Positions 44,658 to 64,000 of a stretch of 64,000 nucleotides of DNA are shown in pieces. Numbering within the stretch: the stretch's first letter is position 1; each line of letters opens with the position of its first letter. A model generated the notes under the pieces. That model had not been told where the DNA came from, searched no databases, and saw nothing but the letters and a program-made list of their open reading frames with translations. The DNA is from Jiangella gansuensis DSM 44835 (GTDB taxonomy: Bacteria; Actinomycetota; Actinomycetes; Jiangellales; Jiangellaceae). Made by a program: the position numbers and the translations under genes. Location of the stretch: contig NZ_KI911782.1 of the NCBI RefSeq assembly GCF_000515395.1, positions 5,176,070-5,240,069 of the forward strand, read 5' to 3'.

Positions 44658-46136
44658 TCAGCCCGGCCGCACCTGTGTCGGCAGGGCATCGTCCGTTCCG
44701 ATGGCACTGTCCGCGGCACCGCCGGGGGCGACTGCCGCCGCCGACGGGTCGCTCACCTGCCCGGCTCCCCGCGGGATCAGCAGGGCGACGACGGCCCCGG
44801 CGGCCACCACCGGCACACCGACCCACAGCGCCGCCACCACGCCGTCGACGAAGCGTTGCGGATCGTCGTACCCGCCGCGGGCCTGGAAGACCGTTCCGAG
44901 CACGGCGATGCCCAGTGCGCCGCCGAACTCACGGACGGTCGTGTTGGCGCCGGACGCGCGGCCGTGCTCTTCCGGCCGGACCGCGGCCAGCACCACGGCC
45001 GCCGTCGGCGCGAACACCAGGCCCATGCCGGTGCCGGCCACCACCATCGGCCCGACGATCTCGGCGAAGGGCTGGCCGGGCGCGGCGATGGCGGCGATCC
45101 ACGCCAGCCCGGTGGCCTGCAGCGCGAGGCCGGCCGCCATCAGCCGGCCCCCGCCGATGCGTTGCGTAAAGATTCCGGCCAGCGGCGCCACCAGCATCGG
45201 CATGATGGTCCACACCATGGTCCGCAGCCCGGCGTCGAGGGGACCGTAGCCGTAGGCGACCTGCAGCAGTTGAGCCAGCAGGAAGATCGACCCGAACACG
45301 CCGAAGTGCATGCACAGCGACACCACGTTGGTGAGGGTGAACGCGCGGATCCGGTACAGCCGGGGCGGCAGCAGCGGCACGGTGGTGCGGCGTTCCCACG
45401 ACACGAACGCGACCGCCAGCAGCACAGCCAGCACGCCGGTCGTCAGTACCGCCGGGTCGGTCCAGCCGCGCTCGTGCCCGTTCACCACGGCCCAGATGCC
45501 GGCGACGATCGACCCGCAGGCCAACGCCATACCGGCGATGTCGATCCGGGTCTCGGGCAGCCGGCTCTCCGGCAGCCAGCGCCGGGCCAGCACGACGGCA
45601 AGCAGCCCGATCGGCACGTTGATCCAGAACACCCAGCGCCAGTCGAGCCCGTCGGCGACGGCACCGCCGGCCAGCGGGCCGAGGGAGATGGCCGCGCCGT
45701 TGGCGGCGCTCCACAGCCCGATGGCCAGCCCGCGCCGGTGCCCGGGCACGGCACCGGCCAGGATCGTCAGCGAGAGCGGGGTGAGCATGGCCGCGCCGAC
45801 ACCCTGGACCGCCCGGGCCGCGATCAGCTGGCCCACCGTGTCGGCCAGCCCGCAGGCCAGGGACGCCGCGGTGAACAACACGATCCCGGCGGTGAACACC
45901 CGCCGCCGGCCCCAGCGGTCACCGAGTCCGGCGGCGACGAGCAGCAGCCCGGCGAACGCCACGATGTACGCGGTCGAGATCCACTGCAGGTGCGCCGCGT
46001 CGGCGTCGAGGTCGACCCGGATCACCGTCAGCGACGTCACGACGACGAGGTTGTCCAGTCCGGCCATGAACATCGGCAGTGAACAGGCGACGAAGATCGC
46101 CACGACCGACCGGGACGGCGCGTCGTCGCGGGTCAT
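44658..46136 (-). CDS. MFS drug/metabolite exporter, DHA2 (EmrB/QacA) type
   Basis: A 492-residue major facilitator with about 14 membrane helices. Visible family motifs are GDRWGRRRVF (loop 2-3 motif A) and LSLTILAGAVPGHRRGLAIG (motif C region; key residues P, G, R, G). It exports drugs or metabolites by proton antiport. ATG 46136 overlaps the fabD stop by 4 bp, tying it tightly to the biosynthetic genes, so it most likely exports the pathway product. The C-terminal 40 residues are a soluble Ala/Pro-rich tail. Confidence 0.93.
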   Translation of the reverse strand: MTRDDAPSRSVVAIFVACSLPMFMAGLDNLVVVTSLTVIRVDLDADAAHLQWISTAYIVAFAGLLLVAAGLGDRWGRRRVFTAGIVLFTAASLACGLADTVGQLIAARAVQGVGAAMLTPLSLTILAGAVPGHRRGLAIGLWSAANGAAISLGPLAGGAVADGLDWRWVFWINVPIGLLAVVLARRWLPESRLPETRIDIAGMALACGSIVAGIWAVVNGHERGWTDPAVLTTGVLAVLLAVAFVSWERRTTVPLLPPRLYRIRAFTLTNVVSLCMHFGVFGSIFLLAQLLQVAYGYGPLDAGLRTMVWTIMPMLVAPLAGIFTQRIGGGRLMAAGLALQATGLAWIAAIAAPGQPFAEIVGPMVVAGTGMGLVFAPTAAVVLAAVRPEEHGRASGANTTVREFGGALGIAVLGTVFQARGGYDDPQRFVDGVVAALWVGVPVVAAGAVVALLIPRGAGQVSDPSAAAVAPGGAADSAIGTDDALPTQVRPG

Positions 46137-47122
46137 GCGGACCGCACCGATGCGAGCGGCTCCGGCGCCAGCTGCGCCACCAGCCGGTCCACCCGGCGCG
46201 CGTCGGCCGCCGAGTGACACTCCAGGTGCGGCAAGGACCGCCGGGTCAGACCGGTCAGCACCCGGCCGGGGCCGACCTCCACACACGCCGACACGTCGTG
46301 ACCGGCGACGGTGTCCAGGCTCTGCCGCCATCGCACCGAGCCGGCCAGCTGCGCCTTGAGCGCCGCGCGGGCGTCGTCGCCGGAGGACACCACGGACGCG
46401 GTGACGTTCGCGACCACGGGGATGCGCGGCCGGGCGAAGTGGGCGGCATCGAGATCGGTCGCGAACTCGGCCTCCACCTCGCGCATGAGCGAGCAGTGGA
46501 ACGGCGCGCCCACGCCGAGGCGGGTGACCTGGACGTCGTCGCCGTCGAGCAGTCCTCGTTCGGCCAGTGCCCGCTCGGTCAGGGCGTCCACGCCGGCCAC
46601 CGTGCCGGACACGACGGTCTGGGTGTCGGAGTTGTAGTTGGCGACCTCGACCGACAGGGCGGCTGCGTCACTCACCTCGGCGCACCAGCGCTCGACCGCC
46701 GACGCCGGCGGCCCGACCACAGCAGCCATCGCGCCCGGGGTGCGCTCGTTGACCGCGGCCATCAGCTCACCGCGCCGGCGCACCAGCCGCAGGGCCGTGA
46801 TCCAGTCCAGGACGCCGGCCGCGACCAGTGCGGTGTATTCACCGAGACTGTGCCCGGCGACGACCACCGGCGCCGGCAGCCGTGCCTCCAGCACCCGGTA
46901 TGCGGCCAGGCTGGCCACGAAGATCGCCGGCTGCGTGATGTCCGTGCGGCGCAGCTCCTCCTCCGGGCCCTCCCAGCACAGCCGGGTGAGGTCGAGCCCG
47001 AGCACGTCGTCGGCGGTGTGGAAGATCGGCCGGACGAGGTCCGGGTGGCGCTCGGCGAGGTCCCGGCCCATGCCCACGCGCTGCGAGCCCTGGCCGGGGA
47101 AGAGGAAGGCGGTTCGGGTCAT
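46133..47122 (-). CDS. fabD: Malonyl-CoA:ACP transacylase
   Basis: A 329-residue transacylase that loads malonyl groups onto acyl carrier protein. Active Ser is S92 in AGHSLGEYTALV, with the carboxylate-binding Arg in VRRRGELM and active His in APFHCSLM. Most cells have one fabD in the fatty acid cluster; this copy is coupled to carboxylase genes and an exporter (4-bp overlaps on both sides), so it is probably dedicated to this pathway. Selectivity for malonyl rather than methylmalonyl is suggested by the usual GHSLGE and AxF-type region but not proven. Confidence 0.94.
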   Translation of the reverse strand: MTRTAFLFPGQGSQRVGMGRDLAERHPDLVRPIFHTADDVLGLDLTRLCWEGPEEELRRTDITQPAIFVASLAAYRVLEARLPAPVVVAGHSLGEYTALVAAGVLDWITALRLVRRRGELMAAVNERTPGAMAAVVGPPASAVERWCAEVSDAAALSVEVANYNSDTQTVVSGTVAGVDALTERALAERGLLDGDDVQVTRLGVGAPFHCSLMREVEAEFATDLDAAHFARPRIPVVANVTASVVSSGDDARAALKAQLAGSVRWRQSLDTVAGHDVSACVEVGPGRVLTGLTRRSLPHLECHSAADARRVDRLVAQLAPEPLASVRSA

Positions 47123-48508: not shown

Positions 48509-49027
48509 TCAGCCGTCGACGGCCAGTTCGACGAGGACCTCGTCGAACTCGACCATCTGCCCGTCGCCGGGATGGATCGCGACCACCCGGCCGGCCCGGT
48601 CGCTCTTGATCTCGTTCATGAGCTTCATCGCCTCGACGATCGCCAGCGTCTGGCCGGCCTCGACCACGTCGTCGATCTCCACGAACGGCGCGGCATCCGG
48701 CGACGGGCGCCGGTAGAAGCTGCCGACGAGCGGTGCCCGGACGGCATGGTGATCCCCGGCTGCGTGGTCGGCGGTGTCCGGCGCGGCGACGCCGGCCGCG
48801 ACAGCTCCGGCCGCGGCCGGAACCGGCCCGGCGGCGGTGGCGCCACCGGCTACGGCGACGACCGGCCGTTCGACCCGGACCGCACAGTCGCCGGCCGTCA
48901 CCTCGACCACCTGCACCGGCCCGCTCGCGCCGGCCAGCAGGGCTGCCGCCTCGGACCGCAGGTGGCTGACCAGCCGTTCGCGGGCCTCGTCGGTGCCGTT
49001 GAGCACGTCCGTCTCCGGTGTCGTCAT
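48509..49027 (-). CDS. accB: Biotin carboxyl carrier protein
   Basis: A 172-residue BCCP. The N-terminal half is helical and then Ala/Pro/Gly-rich, a flexible linker; the C-terminal biotinyl domain carries the biotin-accepting lysine K135 in [10 protein letters not shown]. It shuttles carboxybiotin from AccC to the carboxyltransferase. ATG 49027 overlaps the AccDA stop by 4 bp. Confidence 0.95.
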
Positions 49028-50733
49028 GCCGCACCCGCCCGATATCCCGCGGCGTCGGCACCGAGCCGCCCGTAGGCGTCGAACCGGGTGTAGCGCTGCT
49101 CCACCAGCTCGTCCGGGGACAGAGCGGACAGCTGGTCGAGCGCGGCCGCGACGGCCTCGCCGACCCGTTCGACCGTGCCCGCCGGGTCGCGATGCGCACC
49201 GCCGTCGGGCTCGAGCACGACCTCGTCGACGACACCCAGCTCCAGCAGATCCGGTGCGGTGAGGCGCAGCGCCGCGGCCGCCTCGGGTGCCCGGGTGGCG
49301 CTGCCCCACAGGATCGTAGAGCAGCCCTCGGGGGAGATGACCGAGTAGTAGCCGTACTCCAGCATCAGCACCCGGTTCGCGACGGCCAGCGCCAACGCGC
49401 CCCCGCTGCCGCCCTCACCGGTGACGACGCTGACGACCGGAACGCGCAGCCGCGACATCGCGGCGATGCACTCGGCGATGACGGTGCCCTGCCCACGCTC
49501 CTCGGCCTGCACGCCCGGGTAGGCGCCCGCGGTGTCGACGAACGTCAGGACCGGCAACCCGAACCGCTCGGCGTGCCGCATCAGCCGCATCGCCTTGCGG
49601 TAGCCCTCGGGGTGCGGCATGCCGAAGTTGCGCCGCACCATCTCGGCGGTGTCGTGGCCCTTCTGATGGCCGATGACGACGACGCCGCGCCCGCCGAAGC
49701 GGGCCACGCCGCCGACGATGGCCGGGTCGTCGCCGTGCGCGCGGTCGCCGTGCAGCTCGACGAACTCGTCGGCGAGACGGTGGATGTAGTCGAGGGTGGT
49801 GGGGCGGCCGATGTCGCGTGCCCGGGTCACCACCTCCCAGGGGTCGGCGGCGGCCGATCCGGCCCGCAACCGGCGCGGCTCGGCGGACCCGGCCCGCTCC
49901 GGCATCGACGAGCGGCTCGGAACCGACGGCGCGTGCAACCGCAGCAGGCCGGCCAGCGTTTCCCGCAGGCTCTCCCGCGGGACGACCAGGTCGACCAGGC
50001 CGTGTTCGTGGAGGAACTCCGCGGTCTGGAACCCGGCCGGCAGTTCCTCGCGGATGGTCTGCTGGATCACCTGCGGCCCGGCGAAACCGACCAGGCTGCC
50101 GGGTTCGGCGATGACGACGTCGCCGAGTGAGGAGAACGACGCCGTGGCCCCGCCGAAGGTCGGGTGAGTGTTGAGGTTGATCACCAGGACGCCGGCCTCG
50201 CGCAGCCGGGCGATCTCCTGCGCGGTGCGGGCCAGCTGCATGAGCGACAGGCAGCCCTCCTGCATCCGGGCGCCGCCGGACGCGGAGACGATCAGCAGCG
50301 GGATCCTGGCCTCGCCGGCCCGGCGCGCGGCGTCGACCAGCACGTCGCCGACGACGGTGCCGACACTGCCGCCCATGAACGCGAAGTCCAGCACCGCCAC
50401 CACCAGCCGGTGGCCGCCGATGGCGGCGGTCCCGGCCACGGCGGCCTCGGGCCGGCCCGTCTTGCGCTGTGCCGCGGCCAGCCGCTGCGGATACGGACGG
50501 GAGTCGGCGAAGCCGAGCGGGTCGCCCGGCGTCGGCACAACGCCCAGCGGCTGGAACGACCCGTCGTCGACCAGCAGGTCCAGCCGCTCATCCAGCGACA
50601 GCCGCAGATGATGCTGGCAGTCCGGGCACACCTTCGCGTACCGGTCCAGCCGCTTGACGTACAGGTAGGACGCGCAGCTGGGGCACCTGGTCCAGGCGTC
50701 CTCGCGGATCGGTGTCGTGGTCAGCTCGGTCAC
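49024..50733 (-). CDS. Fused acetyl-CoA carboxyltransferase AccD-AccA
   Basis: A 569-residue single chain joining the AccD (beta) and AccA (alpha) subunits of bacterial carboxyltransferase. The zinc ribbon at the N-terminus is CPSC (C17, C20) and CPDC (C36, C39); the AccD core [11 protein letters not shown] and AccA core [18 protein letters not shown] and [14 protein letters not shown] follow a Pro/Arg-rich linker around 270-295. It turns acetyl-CoA and carboxybiotin into malonyl-CoA. GTG 50733 has GGAGG. Such fusions occur in some polyketide clusters (e.g. jadomycin-type) and archaea. Together with AccB and AccC it makes a complete dedicated ACC. Confidence 0.94.
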
Positions 50734-50748
50734 GATGGTTGTTCCTCC

Positions 50749-52308
50749 CTACGGCGCGACAGGGGTCGCGCGGCGGTACGGCTGTACGGGGCCGGTGCGG
50801 TCCCGGAACGAGCGCGGCAGCGTTGCCCCGACGTCGTTGCCCAGCTCCTCGAGGACGGCCTTGGAGACGGCGAACCCGGACGAGACCGCCCGGAACGACG
50901 AGCAGCCCGACTCCGTCCAGTGCCCGGACAGGTACAGCCCGTCGATGGGGGTCTTGTGCGGGAGCCGCTTGTTGGCGAACTGGTTCGGCGTGTTCTCCCA
51001 GCCGTAGGTGGCGCCCTGGTACGCCCGGGTGAACCGGTGCATCGTCTCCGGGGTGCCGACCTCGCGGTACGTCAGCCGGCTGGAGAGCTCCGGCACGACC
51101 CGGTCGAACAGCCGGACAAGTGCGTCGCCGGCTGCCTCCTTGATCTCGTGCCAGGGCCGGTCCAGCTGCCAGGGCGCCATCACGTTGAGGATCGCCAGGT
51201 GCTCGCCGGCCGGTGCGAGGCCGGGGTCGAGCAAGGTGGTGTTGGACATCCATGCCGACGCGGGACGGCCGGCCAGCACGTCCTGCCAGTTGTCGTCGTG
51301 GTCGAGGTGAGGGTGCACGAACGTCTCGTGCGCGATCCCCAGCTCGGTGAGGTCGATGTCGGTGGCGGCGAACACAGTCACCACCGACAGCGACGGCTTC
51401 ATCCGGTTCAGCCGCTTGAGGTATGCCTCGGGGACGTTCTCGGTGCCCACGAGGTCGTGCATCGTGTGGCGGACGTCGGCGTTGGAGATGACGACGCGCG
51501 CGGTGAACTCGGCGCCGTGCTCGGTGCGCACCCCGGTGGCCCGGCCGTCCGTCATCATGATCGTCTCGACCGGCGTGGAAGCGAGCACCGCGCCGCCGCA
51601 CGAGCGCACGACCGACGCGAACGCGTCCACCATCGACTGATACGAGCCGATCGGGTACCGGGGGCCCTCCAGGTGCGTGTCGAGCATCTGGATGTAGTTG
51701 AGGAAGGACAGGCGCGACGGCGGCGAGCCGATGAACGGCCAGGCCGCGCCCGCCAGGGCTCGCACCCTCGGGCTCGGCGCGTGGTCGGCGAACACGTCGC
51801 CGACGGTGGCCATCCGGTAGCGGGAGAACGTCGGCCGGGCCGCCATCAGCTCGGCCAGCTCACGCGGGTCGATGCGGTAGGGCAGCCACGACATCTCCTC
51901 CAGCGTCGTGCGGCAGACCCCGAAGAACGCGCGCATCTCGGCCGCCTCGGCCGCCGTCAGCACGGCGGCGTGCGCCTCGATGAACGGTTCCCAGCCGTTC
52001 GGCGCCACCAGGTCGAGCCCGTCCGGGAAGACGGTGCCGTACACGTGCGGTGACTCGACGTACGGCACGCGCGCGTCGACGCCGAGGTACTCCAGCAGGT
52101 TCCAGACGATCTCGCCCGCGCTGGTGCCGTGCACGGCCGGGTCGAACGTGTAGTCGCCGCGGACGAAGGCGTGCGCCACGCCGCCGATGCCGGCGCCCTG
52201 CTCACAGACGAGCACCCGCTCGCCGCTGTGCGCCAGCAGCGCCGCGGCCGACAACCCGCCGAGTCCGCTACCGACCACGATGACGTCGTAGTCGTGGGTC
52301 GCGTTCAT
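50749..52308 (-). CDS. Carotenoid desaturase/isomerase-like flavoprotein
   Basis: A 519-residue FAD enzyme of the phytoene desaturase/carotenoid isomerase/retinol saturase family. FAD motif VVGSGLGGLSAAALL (about 11-25), and C-terminal GLYLSGHWTESGCSS, close to the family's NLYLAGHWT. It acts on long conjugated polyenes: desaturation, cis-trans isomerisation or saturation. It is coupled to the FabH-like gene by a 4-bp overlap, inside a KS/KR/DH operon with no carotenoid genes (no phytoene synthase or GGPP synthase). I infer it tailors the polyene made by the operon. Confidence 0.88.
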   Translation of the reverse strand: MNATHDYDVIVVGSGLGGLSAAALLAHSGERVLVCEQGAGIGGVAHAFVRGDYTFDPAVHGTSAGEIVWNLLEYLGVDARVPYVESPHVYGTVFPDGLDLVAPNGWEPFIEAHAAVLTAAEAAEMRAFFGVCRTTLEEMSWLPYRIDPRELAELMAARPTFSRYRMATVGDVFADHAPSPRVRALAGAAWPFIGSPPSRLSFLNYIQMLDTHLEGPRYPIGSYQSMVDAFASVVRSCGGAVLASTPVETIMMTDGRATGVRTEHGAEFTARVVISNADVRHTMHDLVGTENVPEAYLKRLNRMKPSLSVVTVFAATDIDLTELGIAHETFVHPHLDHDDNWQDVLAGRPASAWMSNTTLLDPGLAPAGEHLAILNVMAPWQLDRPWHEIKEAAGDALVRLFDRVVPELSSRLTYREVGTPETMHRFTRAYQGATYGWENTPNQFANKRLPHKTPIDGLYLSGHWTESGCSSFRAVSSGFAVSKAVLEELGNDVGATLPRSFRDRTGPVQPYRRATPVAP

Positions 52309-53402
52309 GTCCTGTCCTCCGTGGAAGTCCGGTTCCAGTCGACGAGCACGCCGGCGTGGACCCACTTGCTGCTCTCGATGCCCACCAGCAGGACCCGCCC
52401 GCCCGGCCGCAGCTGCCCGGCCCGGGCCGCGTCGTCGAGACAGACCAGCGGGCCGGCGCAGCCGAGCGCCCCGCGCCGCGACAGGCTGTCGACGAACTCG
52501 CCGGTGATCTTGGTCCATTCGTCCCGCTCGACGGTGCCCTCGGCCATCGCCGCTCGCATCCAGCCGGAGTTGCCCTCCGGCACGACGCAGACGTCGATCT
52601 CCTCCGGGCCGACACCGCAGGCGGCAAGGGTGTCCCCGATCGCGTCGGCGACCAGGACCGGGGCGAGATGCCCGGCGGCGACGACGTCGACCTTGAGGGT
52701 GACCAGGCGTTTGGCCGCGGCCTGCTCGTGCACCGGCGCGTGCGTTCCGCCGCCCACGACCTGGATGCCGGGCGCCCGGCCGGGCGCGATGGCGGCGGTA
52801 GCGCCGCCCACCAGGCCGCCGGTGGCGTCGGCGTCGGCGCGCACGACCACGGCGCCGGCGCCGTCGCCGAACATGTACATGGGGATCCGGTCGCGGATGC
52901 GCACCTTGCCCGGCTCGACGCCGAGGAAGATCGGCGCCAGCGCCGGTGAGGTCGTCTCGCTGCCGATCACGAGCGCCGTCGTGTGGGCACCGCTCTCCAG
53001 CAGCAGCCGGACCAGCTCCAGCGCCTGCACCGTCCCGGCACCACCGGAACGCAGCTCGAAGGTGGCGCAGCGGCCGATGCCGAGCCGGTCCTGCACGAGG
53101 TTGACGGCGGGCGGCAGCGGGTACTCGGGGGTCGCCGTCGCCAGCACGAGCAGGTCGACCTCGTCCGGCCCGACGCCCGCATCGGCCAGCGCGGCGGCGC
53201 CGGCGCGCGCGGCGATCTCGGAGTTGGCGAAGCGGTGCGCACCGGTCTCGGGGTCGATGATCCAGTGCCGCTCGGTGATGGAGATGTCCTCGGCGACCTC
53301 CGCCGGCAGTGGACCGGCCAGCCGTTCGATCAGGTCGTTGCCGATCGGCTCGCCCGGCAGGAAGCTGCCGGTCCCAGCGACGGTCGCGCGCACGCCGGTC
53401 AC
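52305..53402 (-). CDS. FabH-like ketosynthase III lacking its catalytic triad
   Basis: A 365-residue thiolase-fold protein of the KAS III type. The Cys that normally lies in A-A-C-A-G is glycine here (SGGAG, G121); the His of P-H-Q-A-N is Glu (VVPEGNSG, E276) and the Asn of H-G-N-T-S is not conserved (SLSRRGALG). The overall length and GDGAGAVVVRAD core are intact, so it is not a decayed gene. It may be a structural partner, an acyltransferase of the CerJ/DpsC-related kind, or a binding protein. GTG 53402 overlaps the fabG stop; the stop overlaps the next gene. Confidence 0.85.
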   Translation of the reverse strand: MTGVRATVAGTGSFLPGEPIGNDLIERLAGPLPAEVAEDISITERHWIIDPETGAHRFANSEIAARAGAAALADAGVGPDEVDLLVLATATPEYPLPPAVNLVQDRLGIGRCATFELRSGGAGTVQALELVRLLLESGAHTTALVIGSETTSPALAPIFLGVEPGKVRIRDRIPMYMFGDGAGAVVVRADADATGGLVGGATAAIAPGRAPGIQVVGGGTHAPVHEQAAAKRLVTLKVDVVAAGHLAPVLVADAIGDTLAACGVGPEEIDVCVVPEGNSGWMRAAMAEGTVERDEWTKITGEFVDSLSRRGALGCAGPLVCLDDAARAGQLRPGGRVLLVGIESSKWVHAGVLVDWNRTSTEDRT

Positions 53403-54172
53403 CACTTCAGCCGCCCGAGGCCGAGGCCGGCCATGCCGCCGCCGTCGATGTTCAGCAGGACCCCGGTCATGTACGCCGACTCCGGGCCGGCGAGGAACCG
53501 GATCGCCGAGGCGACCTGCTCGACGGTGGCGAAGTCGCGCATCGGGATCTGCCGCTTGAGGTGCTTGGCGACGTCGCCGGCGGACAGCTCGGCCACCAGG
53601 TCCGTGGGCGCGAACCCGGGAAGGACCGCGTTGACCCTGATGCCGAACCGGGCCAGCTCGATGGCGGCGCTGCGGGTGAACGCGTCGACCGCGCCTTTGG
53701 AGGCGGAGTAGTTCGACTCGCCCGTCCAGCCGCGCTCCCCCATGACCGACGACACGTTCACGATGGAGCCGTCGCGGGTGACCATGAGGTGGTCGAGGAC
53801 GGCCTTCGTGCAGTTGAACACGCCGCCGAAGTTCACCTTCATGACATCGAGCCAGTCCTGCGGCTCCATGCTGTAGATCAGGTTGTCCTTGGAGATGCCG
53901 GCGTTGTTGACCAGGATGTGCAGGCCGCCGAACGCCTCCAGAACGTCGGCCACCAGCGCGGTGGCCTGCTCGTAGTCGGACACGTCGGCCTGGAAGGCCG
54001 CTGCCCGGCCCCCGGCCGCCTCGATCCGGGCGACGACGTCGAGCGCCTCGTCCTTTCCGGACCGGTAGTTGACGGCGACGGTGGCACCGTCGGCGGCCAG
54101 GGCCAGCGCCGTAGCGCGGCCGATGCCGCGGGAGGCCCCGGTGACCACCGCGACCCGTTCGTCCAGCTTCAT
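53399..54172 (-). CDS. fabG: 3-ketoacyl-ACP reductase
   Basis: A 257-residue SDR of the FabG family. Cofactor loop [13 protein letters not shown] (10-22), NNAGISKDN, catalytic S in [13 protein letters not shown] and the FabG-typical PGFAPTD. It reduces the 3-keto group of a growing acyl-ACP with NADPH. ATG 54172 with GAGAGGTG upstream, 21 bp after the KS-CLF fusion gene. The only ketoreductase in the operon. Confidence 0.93.
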
Positions 54173-54193: not shown

Positions 54194-56512
54194 TCATGGG
54201 CAAGGACGGAGGGCCAGCGACACCGCGGACCCGCCCAGCGACACGGCCTGCACGAGCGCCGCCCCGCCCTGCGGGTCGGTCCCCAGCTCGTCGGCCGCGA
54301 GTGCCGCGGTCAGGGCGCCGCCGGGGCCGACCGGCTCGCCGAGGACGACCTTGGGGGTCCGCAGCACGGGCAGCCGGTCCCCGAAGACCCGGCCGAGGCC
54401 GGCGAGCTCGGCACGGTCGGCCGGCGCGAGCCCGGCCGCCGCCGGCCAGATACGGGTGACGTCGTCCGGCCGCAGGCCCGCCGTGCGCAGGGCCTGGTCC
54501 GTGGCCCGGGTGGTCGCGTCACCGGTGAGGTCCCACGAGACCCCGCCTGGCCGCACCCGGCTCGCGCCGCCGTGGCCGGCCAGCTCGGCGAGCGGACGGC
54601 GGCCGTGCTGTCCGGCCGCGCCGCGACGCTCCAGGACCAGTGCGACGGCGGTGTCGGTGATCGCGAACCGGCGGTCGCCGGGGACGGTCGACAGCACTCC
54701 GAGGTCGCGATAGGCGCGGACGACGAGTTCGTCGACCAGGTCGACGGCGACGCAGACGATCGTGTCGGCGCGGCCGGTGCGCAGCAGTTCGTAGCCGTAG
54801 CCGAGTGCGGTGGCGCCCGAGGCATGTCCGGCGGAGACCGTCGACGTCGGGCCGTAGAGGCCGAGGTGCTGCGACACCTGGCCGGTCGCCTGGTTGTAGA
54901 CCGTGTTGGGGAAGACGCCCGGGTCCGCCCCGGCGGCACCGTCGGCGATGACGCCGCGGGTGAACCGGGCCATCGACTCCACCGGCCCGGCGCTGGTCCC
55001 GAGCACCACGCCGATGCCGGCTCGCTCGTCATCCTCGATGCCGGCGTCGGCCAGTGCCTTCGCCACGGTCACGATGGCCGCCACCGTCATCCGGTCCATC
55101 CGCCGGCGCGCCTTGCGGGTGAGGTATGGCTCCGGGTCGACGGTCATGGTCGCGGCCCGGCCCTCCGGGTCGGCCGGGATCCCGGTCTCGTCGGCCAGCG
55201 CCGCCCGAGCCGCGGCCACACCGTCGCCGAACGGGCCGAGCAGGGCGAGCCCGGTGACCACCACGTCGTCCACCTCGGGCGCGGGCGGCCGCCGGTCGTC
55301 GTCGCGGCGCAGCAGCGCGAGGCTGGCGTTCGAGCCGCCGAAGGCGAAGTTGTTCGACACCGCGACCCGGGTGTCCAGCGCCCGTGCGTCCAACGGCACG
55401 TAGTCCAGGTCGCAGGACGGGTCGGGACCGAGGTAGGAGGCGGTGGGCGGCGCCGTGCGCTCGGCCAGGGCGTGGACGGTGACCAGCGCCTCCGCCGCGC
55501 CGGCCGCGCCGAGCAGGTGCCCGATGACCGACTTCGTACTGCTGACCACAGCGTCGTCGGCGGCCGGCCCCAGCGCGGTCCTGATGGCGCTGGTCTCGGC
55601 GGGGTCGTTCTTCTCGGTGCCGGTGCCGTGCCCGTTGACGTAACCGACGTCCGACTGGTCCACGCCCGCGGACCGCAACGCCTGCCCGATCGCCAGCGCG
55701 GCACCGGAGCCGTCCGGCCGTGGCGCCGTCGGGTGGTAGCCGTCGGCGGACAGCCCGTAGCCACCGACCCAGGCCAGGACGTCGCCGGGCTCGGCCAGGT
55801 CCTCGCGCACCAGCACCAGATAGGCCGCGCCCTCGCCGAGCGACAGCCCGCTCCGGCCCGCGGAGTAGGGCCGGGCCGGTTCCGCCGACAGCGCCTCCAG
55901 AGAGTTGAAACCGGCGAAGAGCACGTCGGAGAACGCGTCCGCGCCCCCGGTGAGCACCACGTCGGCCTGCCCTGAGCGGATCAGGTCCGCTGCCCAGCCG
56001 ATGGCGTTCGCCCCGGACGCGCAGGCCGTGTTCACCGCGACCACCGGGCCGCCGAACCCGTACGCGCCGGCCAGCGCCTCGGCCGCCGCCTGCGGTGTCG
56101 ACATCGCAGCCAGACCCGGTGCCGGTCGTTCGCCCCGGTCGACCGCGGCCAGCCACTCGCGGCCGGACAACAGCCCGGCGTTGCAGGTGCCATGGACGAC
56201 GCCGCAGCGCTCCAGCCCGGCGCGGTCGATCGCCGGTGCGGCCGCGGCCACGGCCTCGTCGGCGGCGTGCAGGGCCAGCTCGACCACCCGGTCGCGGTAG
56301 CCACCCGGCCGCGGGTACGGGTGCGCGGTCTCCGGCAGCGCGTCGACCTCGCCGCCGAGCTTGGTGCGCACTCCGGTCAGGTCGATCCGCTGCACCGGCC
56401 GGATCCCGACCCGGCCGTCCCGGGCACCGGCCCAGAGCGCGGCGGCATCCGGGCCGAGGGCCGTGACGGCGCCGACGGCGCGCACCGCCACCCGGGCGTC
56501 CTCGTGGTTCAT
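54194..56512 (-). CDS. Single-chain ketosynthase-chain length factor fusion
   Basis: A 772-residue protein with two thiolase-fold halves. Residues 1-395 are a complete KAS II-type ketosynthase: C164 in NTACASGAN, H295 in GHGTGT and H332 in GHLLGAAGA, plus STKS. Residues 415-772 form a second KS fold in which the Cys is His (H563 in VSAGHASGA), the HGTGT is lost and the second His is Glu (LGEPVGPGGA). This is how a ketosynthase and chain length factor (KS-alpha/KS-beta) pair would look if joined in one polypeptide. ATG 56512 has GGAG upstream. The reading frame is unbroken through the linker near residue 405. Confidence 0.9.
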   Translation of the reverse strand: MNHEDARVAVRAVGAVTALGPDAAALWAGARDGRVGIRPVQRIDLTGVRTKLGGEVDALPETAHPYPRPGGYRDRVVELALHAADEAVAAAAPAIDRAGLERCGVVHGTCNAGLLSGREWLAAVDRGERPAPGLAAMSTPQAAAEALAGAYGFGGPVVAVNTACASGANAIGWAADLIRSGQADVVLTGGADAFSDVLFAGFNSLEALSAEPARPYSAGRSGLSLGEGAAYLVLVREDLAEPGDVLAWVGGYGLSADGYHPTAPRPDGSGAALAIGQALRSAGVDQSDVGYVNGHGTGTEKNDPAETSAIRTALGPAADDAVVSSTKSVIGHLLGAAGAAEALVTVHALAERTAPPTASYLGPDPSCDLDYVPLDARALDTRVAVSNNFAFGGSNASLALLRRDDDRRPPAPEVDDVVVTGLALLGPFGDGVAAARAALADETGIPADPEGRAATMTVDPEPYLTRKARRRMDRMTVAAIVTVAKALADAGIEDDERAGIGVVLGTSAGPVESMARFTRGVIADGAAGADPGVFPNTVYNQATGQVSQHLGLYGPTSTVSAGHASGATALGYGYELLRTGRADTIVCVAVDLVDELVVRAYRDLGVLSTVPGDRRFAITDTAVALVLERRGAAGQHGRRPLAELAGHGGASRVRPGGVSWDLTGDATTRATDQALRTAGLRPDDVTRIWPAAAGLAPADRAELAGLGRVFGDRLPVLRTPKVVLGEPVGPGGALTAALAADELGTDPQGGAALVQAVSLGGSAVSLALRPCP

Positions 56513-56561: not shown

Positions 56562-57836
56562 TCAGGCCGCGCGCAGCGCCACGGCCACGTTCTGTCCTTC
56601 CAGGCCGCGCGCCAGCGCCAGCGCGGAACGCACCGGCAGCTCACGGCTCTCGTTCGGCACCCAGTCCAGGTCGCAGTCGGGGTCCGGGTCGGTCAGGTTG
56701 AGGGTCGGCGGCACGCCTCCGTGGTGCACCGACAGCGCCCCGATCGCGACGTTCGCGGCGCCGGCGGCAGCGACCAGGTGACCGATGGCCGGCTTGACGC
56801 TGCTGGCCGCGACCGCCCCGGAGCCGCCGCCGAACGCTGCCCGCAGCCCGGCCGCCTCGCTGGCGTCACCCAGCCGGGTGGCGCAGCCATGGGTGGCGAC
56901 GTAGTCCGGCCCGGCCGTCCAGCCGGCCTCGCGCCCGGCCGCGACGACCGCGGCGGTCAGGGCGGCACCGTCGGGCTCCGGGGTGACCAGTCCGCCGATG
57001 TCGAAAGCGGAGCCGAGTCCGCAGATCTCCGCGTAGATCCGGGCGCCCCGGGCCGCCGCGGCGCCGTACTCCTCCAGGACCAGGACGGCGGCGCCCTCAC
57101 CCAGCACCGAGCCGGACCGGTCGCGGTCGTAGGGCCGGAACGCCTCGGCGCCGCGCTCGTTGCGGTCGGTGAGGACGCCCAGGCCGTCCATCTTCGACAT
57201 CGTCCAGAACGACACCCCGGTGTCGAAGCCGCCGGCCAGCGCCACGTCGGACTCGCCGCGGCGCACCGAGCGGTAGGCGCGGCCGATCGCGGTGGCTCCG
57301 GCGTCGGCGGTGCCGTGGAAGTAGGCGTTCGCCCCCTTGGCCTGGTAGCGCTGCGACGCGTAGAACAATGCGGCGGCCTGCAACCCCTCGACGTAGAAGA
57401 GCGGGTAGAAGCTGGAGGTCATGCGCTCTCCCAGGACCCGCTCGCGCGCCGTCCCATCGGGTTCACGGACCGAGAGCGCACCGTCGATCAGGTGCTGGGG
57501 GCGCGAGATCTCCTTGTTGCCGGCCAGGAACACGGCCAGCCGCTCCGGGTCGCCGGCGGCGAGGTCGACACCGCTGTCCTCGACCGCGAGCGCCAGCCCG
57601 GCCAGCGCCAGCTCGTCCTCACGGGTGGTGCTGCGCAGCGTGCGGCGCGAGGCATACGGCGACGGGTCGAAGCCGGTCAGCTCGGCACCGATCCGGGTGC
57701 GCAGCGACGTCGGGTCGAACCCGCGCAGCGGGCCGACGGCGGAGCGGCCGGCCAGCAGCCCGTCCCACGTGTCGGCATGACCGGTGCCCAATGCGGTGAG
57801 CAGCCCGATCCCGGTGACCGCCACCCGCCGCGTCAT
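56562..57836 (-). CDS. KAS-like protein with active Cys replaced by Asp
   Basis: A 424-residue KAS I/II-like protein. The position of the active cysteine (TACAS) reads HGTADAG, so the nucleophile is D178. The first His is kept in ATHGCATRLGD and the second in IGHLVAAAGA with the Lys before it. Such substitutions occur in chain length factors and in decarboxylating KS-Q-like domains (Gln). It is coupled by 4 bp to the dehydratase gene. It could be the KS-beta partner of the intact KS at 58264-59556. Confidence 0.87.
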   Translation of the reverse strand: MTRRVAVTGIGLLTALGTGHADTWDGLLAGRSAVGPLRGFDPTSLRTRIGAELTGFDPSPYASRRTLRSTTREDELALAGLALAVEDSGVDLAAGDPERLAVFLAGNKEISRPQHLIDGALSVREPDGTARERVLGERMTSSFYPLFYVEGLQAAALFYASQRYQAKGANAYFHGTADAGATAIGRAYRSVRRGESDVALAGGFDTGVSFWTMSKMDGLGVLTDRNERGAEAFRPYDRDRSGSVLGEGAAVLVLEEYGAAAARGARIYAEICGLGSAFDIGGLVTPEPDGAALTAAVVAAGREAGWTAGPDYVATHGCATRLGDASEAAGLRAAFGGGSGAVAASSVKPAIGHLVAAAGAANVAIGALSVHHGGVPPTLNLTDPDPDCDLDWVPNESRELPVRSALALARGLEGQNVAVALRAA

Positions 57837-58267
57837 GCCGCCCCACCCGTGGCCGTTTCCCGGAGGGTCAGTGCGCCCACGGTGGTGACCACGGCGCCGT
57901 CTACCCGCACCGTCCCGCGCAGTACCGGGTCGCTCGCACCGGGCACCACCTCGACGCTCAGCTCGGCAACGTCGCCGGGCCGCACGTAGCGGCGGTAGCG
58001 GATCCGCGTCGCGCCGGCCAGCGACCACCGCTCCGGCGACCCGGCGCCGTCCACCACCAGGGCGGCCAGGCGGGCCAGGTCGTCCAGGATCAGCACCCCG
58101 GGCAGCACCGGGAAGCGCGGGAAGTGCGTGGCGAAGATCGCCGACGTGGACGGCACGTTGCGGGTCGCCTTGCCCCGGGCGCCGGGCTCCAGCGCGAGCA
58201 CGGTGTCCAGGCCGGCCAGTTCGGCGGCCCGGACCAGATCGGTCCGGTCGAGCAGCGGGGTCGTCAT
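57833..58267 (-). CDS. FabZ-like hotdog 3-hydroxyacyl-ACP dehydratase
   Basis: A 144-residue hotdog-fold protein with the dehydratase signature THFPRFPVLPGVLILDDLARLAAL (key residues H48, P-G-V, acidic residue D62 in place of the usual Glu). It should remove water from 3-hydroxyacyl-ACP to give a trans-2-enoyl chain. ATG 58267 overlaps the upstream KAS stop by 4 bp; the stop overlaps the next KAS start. With FabG it forms the KR-DH pair of the pathway. Confidence 0.85.
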   Translation of the reverse strand: MTTPLLDRTDLVRAAELAGLDTVLALEPGARGKATRNVPSTSAIFATHFPRFPVLPGVLILDDLARLAALVVDGAGSPERWSLAGATRIRYRRYVRPGDVAELSVEVVPGASDPVLRGTVRVDGAVVTTVGALTLRETATGGAA

Positions 58268-59556
58268 CGCGAGCTCTCCTGTCCTGGTCGCGGCCCCGGG
58301 CCGGTGACCACGAAACATGCGTTGGTGCCGCCGAAGGCGAACGCGTTCACGAGCGCGGCCCGCACCGGTCTGGAGGCGGCCACGTTGGGCACGTAGTCGA
58401 GCGACAGCGCCGGGTCCGGGCGGTCGAGGTTGATGGTCGGCGGGACGAGGCCGTCCTGGATCGAGCCGAGCGCGGCAATCAGGTTCAGACCGGCCGCCGC
58501 CGAGGTCAGGTGCCCGGCCATCGACTTGGGCGAGCTCACCGCCAACTGCCCCGCCCACGGTCCGAAGACCTCGGTGATGGCGACCGTCTCGCTGGCGTCA
58601 TTGCCGGGCGTGCCGGTGCCGTGCGCGACGACATAGTCGATGCCGTCGGGTTGCACGCCGGCGTCGACCAGCGCCTCCCGCATCGCGCGGATGGCGCCGC
58701 CGCCGTCCGGCGGGGAGTCGGTGATCCGGTACGCGTTCAGGCTGGACGCGTAGCCGGCGATCTCGCCGAGCACCGTCGCCCCGCGCGCGATCGCGTGCTC
58801 GCGCTCCTCCAGCACGGCCATCACCGCGCCCTCGCCGAGCACGAACCCGTTGCGGCGGGCGTCGAACGGTTTGCAGGCCCGTTCCGGCTGGTCCGGCGAG
58901 TCCTGGGTCAGCGCGCCCAGCAGCGCGAAGCCGAGCACGTCCATCCACGTGGTCAAGGCGTCGTAGCCCCCGGCCAGCATGACGTCGGCGTCGCCGTCCT
59001 GGATGCGCAGATAGGCCTCGCCGAGTGCGTGCGCCGAACCCGCGCACGCGGTGCTGACGGACACGAACGGCCCCCGGCAGTCGCCGATGTCGGCCATGAC
59101 GGCGGGCGCGACGTTCTGGTCGCGTTCCAGCACCTCGGCCGGGGACTGCCGGAAGATCTGCCGGTGTCCGGTCGACTCCAGGAGCCATGACATGTCGGCC
59201 AGCTGCTGCAACTCGATGCGGCCCACGGTGCCGCCGACGGACACCCCGCGGCGGTACGGGTCGCCGTCCAGCGGCCCCGCCTGGGCGAGCGCCTCGACGG
59301 CGGCCGCCACACCGTAGCCGGCCCCACGCGAGAGGTAGCGACGGTGGCGGCGCTCCGGCACCGCGGTGGCGAGGTCGAAATCGGTCACCTGGCCGGCGAT
59401 GCGGACCGGGAAGGCGGAGGCGTCGAAGGTGGTGATCTCGCGGACCCCGCTGCGCCCCTCCGCCAGCGCCTTCCACGTGCCGGTGGCGTCGTTCGCCAGT
59501 GGTGTGACGGCACCGATCCCGGTGACGACGACGCGCCGCCGGCCCTGCGCGGTCAC
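58264..59556 (-). CDS. 3-ketoacyl-ACP synthase II-like, catalytically intact
   Basis: A 430-residue KAS II with a full Cys-His-His set: C171 in VSTACAGSAH, H312 in AHGTGTPGND and H349 in AGHLTSAAAG. It extends acyl-ACP by decarboxylative condensation with malonyl-ACP. GTG 59556 overlaps the atypical hotdog stop by 4 bp. Its KS-like neighbour 56562-57836, with Asp for Cys, could be its non-catalytic partner. Confidence 0.92.
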   Translation of the reverse strand: MTAQGRRRVVVTGIGAVTPLANDATGTWKALAEGRSGVREITTFDASAFPVRIAGQVTDFDLATAVPERRHRRYLSRGAGYGVAAAVEALAQAGPLDGDPYRRGVSVGGTVGRIELQQLADMSWLLESTGHRQIFRQSPAEVLERDQNVAPAVMADIGDCRGPFVSVSTACAGSAHALGEAYLRIQDGDADVMLAGGYDALTTWMDVLGFALLGALTQDSPDQPERACKPFDARRNGFVLGEGAVMAVLEEREHAIARGATVLGEIAGYASSLNAYRITDSPPDGGGAIRAMREALVDAGVQPDGIDYVVAHGTGTPGNDASETVAITEVFGPWAGQLAVSSPKSMAGHLTSAAAGLNLIAALGSIQDGLVPPTINLDRPDPALSLDYVPNVAASRPVRAALVNAFAFGGTNACFVVTGPGPRPGQESSR

Positions 59557-59999
59557 TGCCCGGCTCCGGTCAGCGCCGCCAGTTGCCGCCGGGTCACCGC
59601 GGGGTCGTCCAGCTCAGCGGTGTCGATGAGCGCGCACATGACGTCCGTGGCCTCCAACACCGTGCGGTCGCCGACCACGACCGTGCCGGACACCACGGCC
59701 ATCTCGTCCGATGCGGACTCCACCGTGGCGGTCACGTCCAGGACGTCGCCGGGACGTACCGGGCCGGTGAATCGCACGTCGGCGACCGACAGCAGGGCAG
59801 CACGCCGGGCAACGTCGGTGTCGAGCATCACCAGCCAGGCGCCGGCCTGGCACAGGACCTCGAGGACCAGCGGCGGCGGCATCACCGGGCCGTCCGGCGT
59901 CTGGCGCCAGTACGGCTCGGAGCGTGAGGTGAGCTTCCTGGCCCGGATCTCCCGGCCGGGCTCGTAGCCGACGATCCGGTCGGTCAGCTGGAAGAGCAC
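59553..59999 (-). CDS. Hotdog-fold protein with degenerate dehydratase motif
   Basis: A 148-residue hotdog protein aligned with FabZ through SEPYWRQTPDGPVMPPPLVLEVLCQ (short form: SEPYW...PVMPPPLVLE). The FabZ catalytic His position is Thr/Pro-rich (about T34) and P-G-V is P-P-P, although the Glu (E47 in LVLE) is kept. It probably does not dehydrate like FabZ; it may isomerise double bonds or dimerise with the active dehydratase. GTG 59999 lies 15 bases inside the acpS 3' end, a 16-bp overlap. Confidence 0.8.
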   Translation of the reverse strand: MLFQLTDRIVGYEPGREIRARKLTSRSEPYWRQTPDGPVMPPPLVLEVLCQAGAWLVMLDTDVARRAALLSVADVRFTGPVRPGDVLDVTATVESASDEMAVVSGTVVVGDRTVLEATDVMCALIDTAELDDPAVTRRQLAALTGAGQ

Positions 60000-60407: not shown

Positions 60408-60818
60408 TCAGGCGGCTGCCGTCGCCGTCACCCGGGCGAGCACGAGGTCCACCAGGTTGTCGACGGTGAACAGGCCCATGACCCCTTCGGCCGGCAACTT
60501 CCCGCGCAGCGCCTCGACGTCGATCTGCGGCATCACCGTGGCGAGCTGGGCGAGGCCGATGTCGGAGACGACGCCCTCCGGCGTGCCGAAGTCGTCCTCG
60601 GAGATGCCGCCCTGTACGTGCTCGGCCAGGTCGGCGGCGGTGATCTTGACACCGAGCGACCGCTCCAGCCGGAACAGGATGTCCAGCAGGTCGATCGACT
60701 CCGCCTCGAGGTCGCCGAGCAGCGTCGCCTCGGCCACCACGTCCTCCTCCTCGACGCCCAGCGCGTCGACCAGTGCCGCCCGCACGGCCTCGAAGACCTC
60801 GTCCTTGACCAGCGTCAT
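60408..60818 (-). CDS. Acyl carrier protein with internal insertion
   Basis: A 136-residue ACP, much longer than the usual 80. The phosphopantetheine serine is S41 in LEAESIDLLDILF. The canonical last helix (FTVDNLVDLVLARV) lies at about 116-129, so roughly 50 residues (about 62-113, starting after KITAADL, rich in Gly/Asp/Pro) are inserted before it. The insert may contact the KS partners or lengthen chain protection. ATG 60818 has GGGAGGA; an in-frame ATG at 60839 has no ribosome site. First gene of the operon. Confidence 0.9.
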   Translation of the reverse strand: MTLVKDEVFEAVRAALVDALGVEEEDVVAEATLLGDLEAESIDLLDILFRLERSLGVKITAADLAEHVQGGISEDDFGTPEGVVSDIGLAQLATVMPQIDVEALRGKLPAEGVMGLFTVDNLVDLVLARVTATAAA

Positions 60819-61928: not shown

Positions 61929-61947
61929 TGAGTCGGCGGCCGACTCA
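61929..61947 (-). terminator. Hairpin at the end of the MMPL gene
   Basis: TGAGTCGG (61929-61936) and CCGACTCA (61940-61947) form a perfect 8-bp stem with a 3-nt loop, overlapping the MMPL stop codon. It may limit read-through into the sigma factor gene. Confidence 0.6.
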
Positions 61948-64000
61948 CACCCGTGTGGTGTCCGCGACCTCACCGGCCGCCACCGTCACCGTGTCCGGGG
62001 GCTCCGCGGCGTCGTACTCCCGCAGGCCGTGCCGGTCCCACCACCGCCGCAGCGGTCCCGGCGCCCACCAGCACCGAGTGCCCAGTAGGCGCATGGTCGC
62101 CGGGACGAGCAGCGCACGGACGATGGTGGCGTCGACGATGATCGCGACCACCAGTCCGACACCCACCATCTTGATGAACGTCACCCCGGAGGTCGCGAAC
62201 GCGCCCACCACGATGACCAGCAACAACGCAGCAGCGGTGATGATCTTCGCCGTCTTCTGCACACCGGTGGCGATGGACTCCACGTGGTCGCCGGTGCGGT
62301 CCCACTGCTCCCGGATGCGGGAGACCAGGAACACCTCGTAGTCCATGGCGAGGCCGAACGCGATGGCGATCATAAGCACCGGCATGGTGGCGTCGACCAG
62401 GCCCGTCGGAGTGAACCCGAGCGGCCCGGAGAGATGCCCGTCCTGGAAGATCAAGACGATCGCGCCGAAGGACGCCGACAGCGACAGCAGGTTCATCGCG
62501 ATCGACTTCAACGGCAGCACCAGTGAGCCGAACGCGAGGAACAGCAGCACCACTGAGACCACGCCGACGAACAGGCCCATCCACGGCAGCCGCTCGCTGA
62601 CGCTGTCGAGCAGGTCGGCCAGGCCGGCCGGACCACCGGCGAACAACGCTTCGACGCCGTCCGGCGGCTGCACCGAGCGCAGCTCTGCCAGCAGGTCCAG
62701 CCCGTCGGCCGACTGCGGCGCGGGCGCGTACTGGATGCTCAGCGCCACGGTCTGGTCGGCGGCGCCGACTGGCGCGATGGTCTCGACGCCGGGCACCGCC
62801 GTGAGCGCCGACATGTAGTCGTCGAGGGCCGCACCACCCGCCGCGCTGTCGACGGGGTCGGGCAGGGTCACCGCGGCGGTGATGGCGTCGGCCGGGTTGG
62901 CCGGGAAGTCCGCCTCGAGGGCTTCTGCCACCTGGCGGGCTTCGGTGCCCTCCGGCAGCGCCCGGGCATCGGCCATGCCCCAGTCGACCCGCAGGAACGG
63001 CAGGCCGAGGGCGACGAGCACGCCGACGATGCCGATGGTGACGGCCACCGGCCTGCGCATCACCGCGTGGGCGATCCGGTACCAGCCGCGGCCGTCGCCG
63101 GCGCGCAGCCGCCGCGGCAGCGGGACCGGCCAGGCGTCGACCCGGCGGCCGATCAGGGCCAGCAGCGCGGGCAGCACGACGAGTGCTCCGACCAGCGCGA
63201 ACAGCACGGTCGCGACCCCGCCCATTCCCATCGAGCGCAGGAACGTCTGCGGGAAGAAGAGAAGGCTCAGCAGCGAGACCCCGAGGGTCAGCCCGGAGAA
63301 CGCGACGGTGCGGCCGGCGGTGCGCATGGTGCGCATCACGGCTTCGGCCGGCGTGGCGCTGGTGGGCAGTTCCTCACGGAAGCGGCTGACGATGAAGAGC
63401 GCGTAGTCGATGGCGAGACCAAGGCCCAGCATGGTCACCAGGTTGATCGCGAACACCGAGACGTCGGTGCCCATGGTCATCACGCGCAGCACGGCGAACG
63501 AGCCCATGATGCACAGGGCACCCACCGCCAGCGGCAGCAACGCGGCCACCACGCTGCGGAAGACGAGCACCATCAGGACCAGGAGAATCGGCATCGCCAT
63601 CAGCTCGGCGCGGGTGATGTCGCTCTGGATCTGGCCGTTGATCTCCTGGCCCATCGGCACCTGACCGCCCAGTTGCAGGCTCAGTCCCGGAACCTCCAGC
63701 AGCTCGGACACCGCGTCGTACGCGTCGGAACGCGCGCCGACGTCGTCGCCTTCCAGCTGGATCGCCACATAGGTGCCGGCCCGGTCGGCGGAGACGAAGG
63801 CGTCGGCGCCGGTGGAGTAGTACGAGCGAACCGCGACCACCTGGCCGGAGGCGTCGAGATCGTCGGCGACTCCTGTCATGGCCGCCTCGTACTCGGCGTC
63901 GTCCACCGTGAGATCGTCGCTGTGGTACAGCGCCACGACGTCGACGGCGGTGCGGCCGATGGCTTCCTCGACGATGTCCACGGCCCGCACCGATTCGCTG
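61945..64000 (-). CDS. MMPL/RND family transporter, 5' end beyond window
   Basis: A reading frame open to the right edge; at least 685 residues are visible. It has two RND halves: a porter domain, then a sextuplet of helices with GLGLAIDYALFIVSRFREE, and a second with AFGLAMDYEVFLVSRIREQW, the proton-relay motif of MMPL proteins. These export lipids, polyketides or glycolipids. The first helix lies outside the window. Aryl polyene clusters of Gram-negatives often carry an MMPL-type exporter; whether this gene serves the nearby operon is unproven, since an ECF sigma gene and a tiny ORF lie between. Confidence 0.9.
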   Translation of the reverse strand, partial: SESVRAVDIVEEAIGRTAVDVVALYHSDDLTVDDAEYEAAMTGVADDLDASGQVVAVRSYYSTGADAFVSADRAGTYVAIQLEGDDVGARSDAYDAVSELLEVPGLSLQLGGQVPMGQEINGQIQSDITRAELMAMPILLVLMVLVFRSVVAALLPLAVGALCIMGSFAVLRVMTMGTDVSVFAINLVTMLGLGLAIDYALFIVSRFREELPTSATPAEAVMRTMRTAGRTVAFSGLTLGVSLLSLLFFPQTFLRSMGMGGVATVLFALVGALVVLPALLALIGRRVDAWPVPLPRRLRAGDGRGWYRIAHAVMRRPVAVTIGIVGVLVALGLPFLRVDWGMADARALPEGTEARQVAEALEADFPANPADAITAAVTLPDPVDSAAGGAALDDYMSALTAVPGVETIAPVGAADQTVALSIQYAPAPQSADGLDLLAELRSVQPPDGVEALFAGGPAGLADLLDSVSERLPWMGLFVGVVSVVLLFLAFGSLVLPLKSIAMNLLSLSASFGAIVLIFQDGHLSGPLGFTPTGLVDATMPVLMIAIAFGLAMDYEVFLVSRIREQWDRTGDHVESIATGVQKTAKIITAAALLLVIVVGAFATSGVTFIKMVGVGLVVAIIVDATIVRALLVPATMRLLGTRCWWAPGPLRRWWDRHGLREYDAAEPPDTVTVAAGEVADTTRV

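Follow-up and report, generated by a model that had tools for sequence, protein, structure and literature searches.

A predicted single-chain ketosynthase–chain length factor pair in a putative polyene-type type II polyketide synthase operon of Jiangella gansuensis

In type II polyketide synthases (PKSs), the ketosynthase (KS) and the chain length factor (CLF) are normally separate subunits. CLFs are hard to study because KS–CLF heterodimers need co-expression and can mispair in clusters that contain several pairs. Covalently linked KS–CLF didomains occur in PUFA synthases and heterocyst glycolipid synthases, where PfaC and HglC are multidomain megasynthase proteins (PMC3098273). In PUFA synthases, the KS–CLF didomain and the other KS differ in their chain-length preference (PMC9702510). 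Two KS/CLF pairs within one reducing cluster also have a precedent (PMC11446937), and the aryl polyene proteins ApeI and ApeP form a heterodimeric dehydratase (PMC8041823).

The window analysed here, a stretch of 64,000 nucleotides from Jiangella gansuensis DSM 44835, contains a gene for which an earlier note had proposed a KS and a CLF joined in one chain of 772 residues. The open reading frame and its Pfam domains, two ketoacyl-synthase N-terminal and two C-terminal ones, bear this out. The coordinates were correct as well, and the strand, which had been left unstated, is the minus strand: the frame runs uninterrupted from an ATG at 56512 to a stop at 54194, with an AGGAG-like sequence upstream, and the plus-strand frame over the same interval is not the gene. 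The chain carries no further domains such as a dehydratase (DH), its matches being limited to ketoacyl-synthase and weak thiolase models, and a PHROGs search gave no match. With a probability of about 0.72, the protein is a single-chain KS/CLF pair that acts as the second elongating KS of a reducing, polyene-type type II PKS. Its parts are as follows.

54194..56512, minus strand: fused KS–CLF gene, 772 aa, ATG-to-stop open frame, two ketoacyl-synthase N and C domains, a single frame in 24 other loci
55301..56512, minus strand: N-terminal catalytic KS half, residues 1-404, FabF-like, 58-86% identity among relatives
56021..56023, minus strand: codon of the nucleophile Cys164, motif NTACASG, kept in 25/25 chains
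55628..55630, minus strand: codon of His295, motif GHGTGT, kept in 25/25
55517..55519, minus strand: codon of His332, motif GHLLGAAGA, kept in 25/25
55277..55300, minus strand: proline-rich linker core, residues 405-412, short in most homologues; in the model it joins the last KS strand (394-402) to the first CLF strand (417-426)
54197..55276, minus strand: C-terminal CLF-like half, residues 413-772, KS fold with the catalytic residues gone
54824..54826, minus strand: codon of His563 at the Cys position, motif SAGHASG, His in 24/25 and Asn once
54446..54448, minus strand: codon of Trp689 at the HGTGT position, which reads WPAAAG, Trp in 24/25 and Tyr once
54335..54337, minus strand: codon of Glu726 at the second His position, G-E in LGEPVG, Glu or Asp in 25/25

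The 25 chains compared are that of the window and 24 others from the scan loci, Streptomyces plasmids and further genomes. The full Cys-His-His triad of a KAS II, which the earlier note had read in the first half, is present as C164, H295 and H332 and intact in every one of these chains. The FabF equivalog model TIGR03150 scores 435.6 bits over the protein, and because this lies below the curated cut-off of 493.75, the first half is classed by sequence as FabF-like, yet not FabF itself.

The reading of the second half as a KS fold with His for Cys, no HGTGT and Glu for the second His was likewise confirmed (H563, W689, E726). The triad is lost in all 25 fused chains, and the replacement residues are themselves conserved. 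In a profile search of the PDB, this half matched FabF structures best, and also the actinorhodin protein ActI-ORF2 (1tqy_B) and the CLF-type partner chain 6smo_C; the matches of a single-sequence search include the partner (CLF) chain of the ishigamide system, 6kxd_B. A CLF can be recognised as a KS fold without the catalytic Cys, and the second half has His563 at that position within a predicted KS fold. A second catalytic KS in this half is ruled out, as the triad is absent in all chains and the branch lies outside all catalytic groups.

His at the Cys site and Glu or Asp at the His site are kept more strictly than a merely structural role needs, which counts against the preferred explanation. 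His563 and Glu726 sit at the former catalytic positions, so conserved (24/25 for His563, 25/25 for Glu or Asp at 726) that the second half might instead be a partner with its own chemistry through these two residues, for example a cyclization factor like AmcG of the cispentacin pathway, and not a CLF. AmcG demonstrates that KS-like partners can act as cyclization factors (PMC10698177), and the NCBIfam model AmcF (NF058662) does score 278.8 bits on the fused protein. This score is below the cut-off of 325, however, and no AmcG-like model is among the matches listed. Furthermore, the ketoreductase (KR) and DH genes of the chromosomal loci fit linear polyene chemistry, and classical CLFs also have a conserved residue at the Cys site, such as Gln in ActI-ORF2. 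A partner of this kind is thus rather unlikely. A bolder form, in which the second half would be a new pseudo-ketosynthase partner with its own His/Glu(Asp) site, so that one chain would combine two chemistries (condensation and, e.g., cyclization or isomerization), is a long shot.

How the two halves are arranged was addressed by structure prediction. AlphaFold2, given 14 homologues, returned a model with a mean pLDDT of 86.7 and a pTM of 0.93; for the Kutzneria homologue (54% identical) the values were 85.3 and 0.92. The best PDB match of both models is the KS–CLF didomain of PfaC (6riw), with TM scores of 0.81 and 0.82 by query length, and 6riw is the only structure among the matches listed that spans both halves. 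The two halves of one chain are thus predicted to dock on each other in the manner of a KS–CLF pair. The earlier note had left it to a model to place the interface within one chain or between two, and the model favours single-chain docking as in PfaC. Two fused chains could also pair head to tail, with the KS of one against the CLF of the other and no internal pair: the linker is short, the geometry of a dimer would allow domains to be exchanged, and a single-chain AlphaFold model leaves room for such an exchange. Given that the high-pTM single-chain models set the halves together as in 6riw, it is regarded as unlikely.

Full-length relatives were found in 14 actinobacterial loci, 52-82% identical, in a scan of 84,980 species genomes. 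They belong to Jiangella, Kribbella, Haloactinopolyspora, Phytoactinopolyspora, Streptomyces, Saccharothrix, Actinoplanes and Kutzneria, and the frame is continuous in all 14 loci. The protein has a patchy distribution: it is present in 4 of the 12 genomes from the genus, 7 of 22 from the family and 12 of 395 from the class, and one fused chain comes from another class of the same phylum. No copy of the second half outside the fused frame was found in the 395 genomes of the class. The dN/dS ratio is about 0.10-0.25 for the first half and 0.21-0.47 for the second, and therefore purifying selection acts on both halves. A copy in Kribbella albertanoniae is closer to that of Jiangella aurantiaca (second-half dS 0.26) than the window is, through either gene transfer or cross-contamination of the two draft assemblies.

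KS and CLF genes usually lie side by side, and in Verrucomicrobia the two are separate and overlap; a sequencing or assembly error that deleted a stop and a start between two genes could thus mimic a fusion. The earlier note had named such an error in the linker as what would undo its claim. The same single frame recurs in 24 further chains from chromosomes and plasmids, no split version occurs among the close relatives, and the linker of ~8-14 residues keeps its length and proline-rich composition in them. The chance of an artefact is next to nil, and an erroneous linker or gene split is ruled out by the 24 independent fused frames.

The origin of the fusion was approached with trees. A tree of 55 rows placed the halves in separate groups: the first half lies with the KS of Verrucomicrobia, next to NodE and FabF, while the second is a long branch near the CLF-like genes of Verrucomicrobia. 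A quick tree joined the second half to these CLF-like genes with a support of 99, with long branches in play. When the Verrucomicrobia genes were left out, it still stood outside all KS and CLF groups, a placement that carries a long-branch warning. Constraining both halves to one clade was not rejected (p-AU 0.325). Because of the long branches and this value, the tree cannot choose between gene fusion and internal duplication. For the class assignment in the earlier note this means that one part held, as the second half forms its own branch and does not group with catalytic KSs; a firm join to known CLFs, given the long branches, did not emerge. In six loci of Verrucomicrobia (L023-L028), a KS gene overlaps a separate CLF-like gene, which has the same LGE motif. 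Very divergent as it is, this unfused pair no more than hints at a fusion origin. In one of these loci (L026), genes for an AMP-binding enzyme and for a LipA-type acyltransferase lie close to the pair.

The fused gene is part of a minus-strand operon. Read along this strand, an MMPL exporter and an ECF sigma factor are followed by an acyl carrier protein (ACP), AcpS, DH1, KS1, DH2, CLF1, the fused KS–CLF and a KR. Downstream of the KR are a KAS III-like gene, a CrtI-like oxidoreductase, a fused AccDA, BCCP, AccC, an acyltransferase, an MFS exporter and a TetR-like regulator, the last called from its sequence and not from a family search. The core from ACP to KR (ACP-AcpS-DH1-KS1-DH2-CLF1-KS-CLF-KR) keeps its order in most actinobacterial loci, and discrete ACP, KR, DH and PPTase genes adjoin the fused gene. 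Of the genes scanned, none was recognised as an enoyl reductase.

61945..63990, minus strand: MMPL-family exporter, as far as read in the window, PF03176, in the same place in two related loci (L009, L010)
60408..60818, minus strand: ACP, PP-binding PF00550 with 36.2 bits
59984..60406, minus strand: holo-ACP synthase AcpS, TIGR00516 with 77.4 bits, above cut-off
59553..59999, minus strand: FabZ-like dehydratase DH1 (FabZ match), Glu kept and His lost, LExLCQA in 14/14 with no His
58264..59556, minus strand: separate catalytic KS (KS1), Cys-His-His intact, fabF 410.2 bits, STACAG, AHGTGT/AHGTST and GHLTSA conserved
57833..58267, minus strand: FabZ-like dehydratase DH2 (FabZ match), His kept (HFPRFP, 14/14), Asp for Glu
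56562..57836, minus strand: separate CLF-like protein (CLF1), Asp for Cys (GTADAG with Asp in 15/15 relatives), HGCAT; start picked from overlap and motif
53399..54172, minus strand: FabG-type KR, PRK12826.1-2 with 229.8 bits (above cut-off), FlxB with 221.7 bits (below cut-off)
52305..53402, minus strand: KAS III-like protein, active Cys replaced by Gly (RSGGAG), PF08545 and PF08541
50749..52308, minus strand: CrtI-like FAD-dependent oxidoreductase, crtI_fam 147.4 bits (below cut-off), amine oxidase domain
49024..50733, minus strand: fused AccD-AccA carboxyltransferase, 569 residues, accD 333.2 bits and accA 377.5 bits, both above cut-off
48509..49027, minus strand: biotin carboxyl carrier protein (BCCP), PF00364
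47119..48507, minus strand: AccC biotin carboxylase, accC 659.6 bits, above cut-off
46133..47122, minus strand: malonyl-transferase-like acyltransferase, PF00698
44658..46331, minus strand: MFS exporter of the DHA2 efflux family, in the same operon in relatives by synteny

The two dehydratases have complementary half sites in 14 loci; across these loci the His of DH2 is retained, and the other catalytic place is taken by Asp or Glu. Half sites distributed in this way are typical of a heterodimeric dehydratase with a single active site, such as ApeI/ApeP, and by analogy DH1 and DH2 may pair likewise. The operon points to a reducing type II PKS of the polyene type that has one covalent and one separate KS/CLF system, because it combines both with complementary DH1 and DH2 and a KR and has no recognised enoyl reductase.

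Several further features of the neighbourhood were observed. The Asp at the Cys position of CLF1 (GTADAG) is conserved, versus Gln in ActI-ORF2. The fused AccD-AccA with the adjoining BCCP and AccC amounts to a cluster-own acetyl-CoA carboxylase. The Cys of the KAS III-like protein is also gone in the chromosomal relatives that have the gene, and is retained in the Streptomyces plasmid lineage; the RSGGAG motif is found in all but this lineage and one AGSG variant. A plasmid-borne Streptomyces cluster (L032) encodes the fused protein with no KR or DH annotated and with deoxysugar and glycosyltransferase-like genes. The same didomain may thus serve a different chemistry.

In the proposed mechanism, an acyl-ACP would load Cys164, the presumed carrier of the growing chain, and malonyl-ACP would be decarboxylated with the aid of His295 and His332. 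The second half, which has no nucleophile, would shut the acyl tunnel at the interface and limit the chain length. The KR, followed by the DH1/DH2 pair, would then reduce and dehydrate each unit. A likely benefit of the fusion would be to secure correct pairing and a fixed 1:1 stoichiometry beside the separate KS1/CLF1 of the same operon. The differing chain-length preferences within PUFA synthases offer a model for a division of labour between the fused KS–CLF and KS1/CLF1.

The operon also has a full KS/CLF pair in KS1 and CLF1, to which all elongation might fall, with the fused protein priming or transferring chains. The aryl polyene system offers a parallel, since its second ketosynthase, ApeR, is dispensable in vitro for the full-length polyene and raises throughput (PMC8358021). 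Such a role is nevertheless unlikely: the first half, which resembles FabF rather than KAS III, keeps all three condensing residues throughout the relatives, and a separate gene encodes a KAS III-like protein. Its place in the operon makes the fused KS–CLF a probable second elongase, self-contained, for a chain of the polyene type.

A natural free-standing KS–CLF of 772 residues would suit residue-by-residue tests of the role of the CLF and of the control of partner choice. The fused protein is also a marker of a conserved, uncharacterised family of actinobacterial clusters that likely produce polyene-type chains. The earlier note had pointed to PUFA synthases as the precedent and had called a covalent link unusual in a type II system, and this agrees with the literature searches, in which PUFA-synthase didomains alone turned up. 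No free-standing KS–CLF didomain in a type II operon was found in the open papers searched, and the words "fused" and "fusion" are absent from a catalogue of 6352 type II KS–CLF pairs. Free-standing fused KS–CLFs in type II clusters thus appear to be undescribed, although priority is not established.

Among known systems, the didomains of PfaC (6riw) and of HglC-type KS-CLF-AT proteins come closest in architecture, with a KS followed by a CLF in one chain, and the predicted fold matches PfaC over both halves. The identity to 6riw in the structural alignment is 18-19%, and the chain has 772 residues versus 923. Unlike these megasynthases, the fused protein stands by itself within a type II operon. 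With the actinorhodin (1tqy) and ishigamide (6kxd) systems it shares the pairing of a catalytic KS with a Cys-less KS-like partner. Those heterodimers consist of two proteins, whereas here, as in 24 other loci, KS and CLF form one chain and not separate subunits, and the second half branches deeply and on its own. A KS with a motif-less KS-like partner is also seen in AmcF-AmcG of the cispentacin pathway (KS and cyclization factor), but these are separate proteins that perform a single elongation and ring closure, and the AmcF model stays below its cut-off here.

At the level of the cluster, the aryl polyene synthases (ApeO-ApeC, ApeR, ApeQ, ApeI/ApeP) are similar in having two ketosynthase systems, a FabG-like KR, a complementary DH pair (a putative pairing here, judged by sequence) and no recognised enoyl reductase. 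In contrast, ApeO-ApeC is unfused and ApeR has no CLF, while the second KS of the Jiangella cluster carries its own; this cluster further differs by its own acetyl-CoA carboxylase and its KAS III-like and CrtI-like genes. No gene for the supply of an aryl starter is seen among those annotated. The pachycephalamide cluster of Amycolatopsis, also a reducing type II PKS cluster, likewise has two KS/CLF pairs (PMC11446937). Both of its pairs are encoded by separate genes, whereas one of the two is joined in a single chain in the Jiangella operon.
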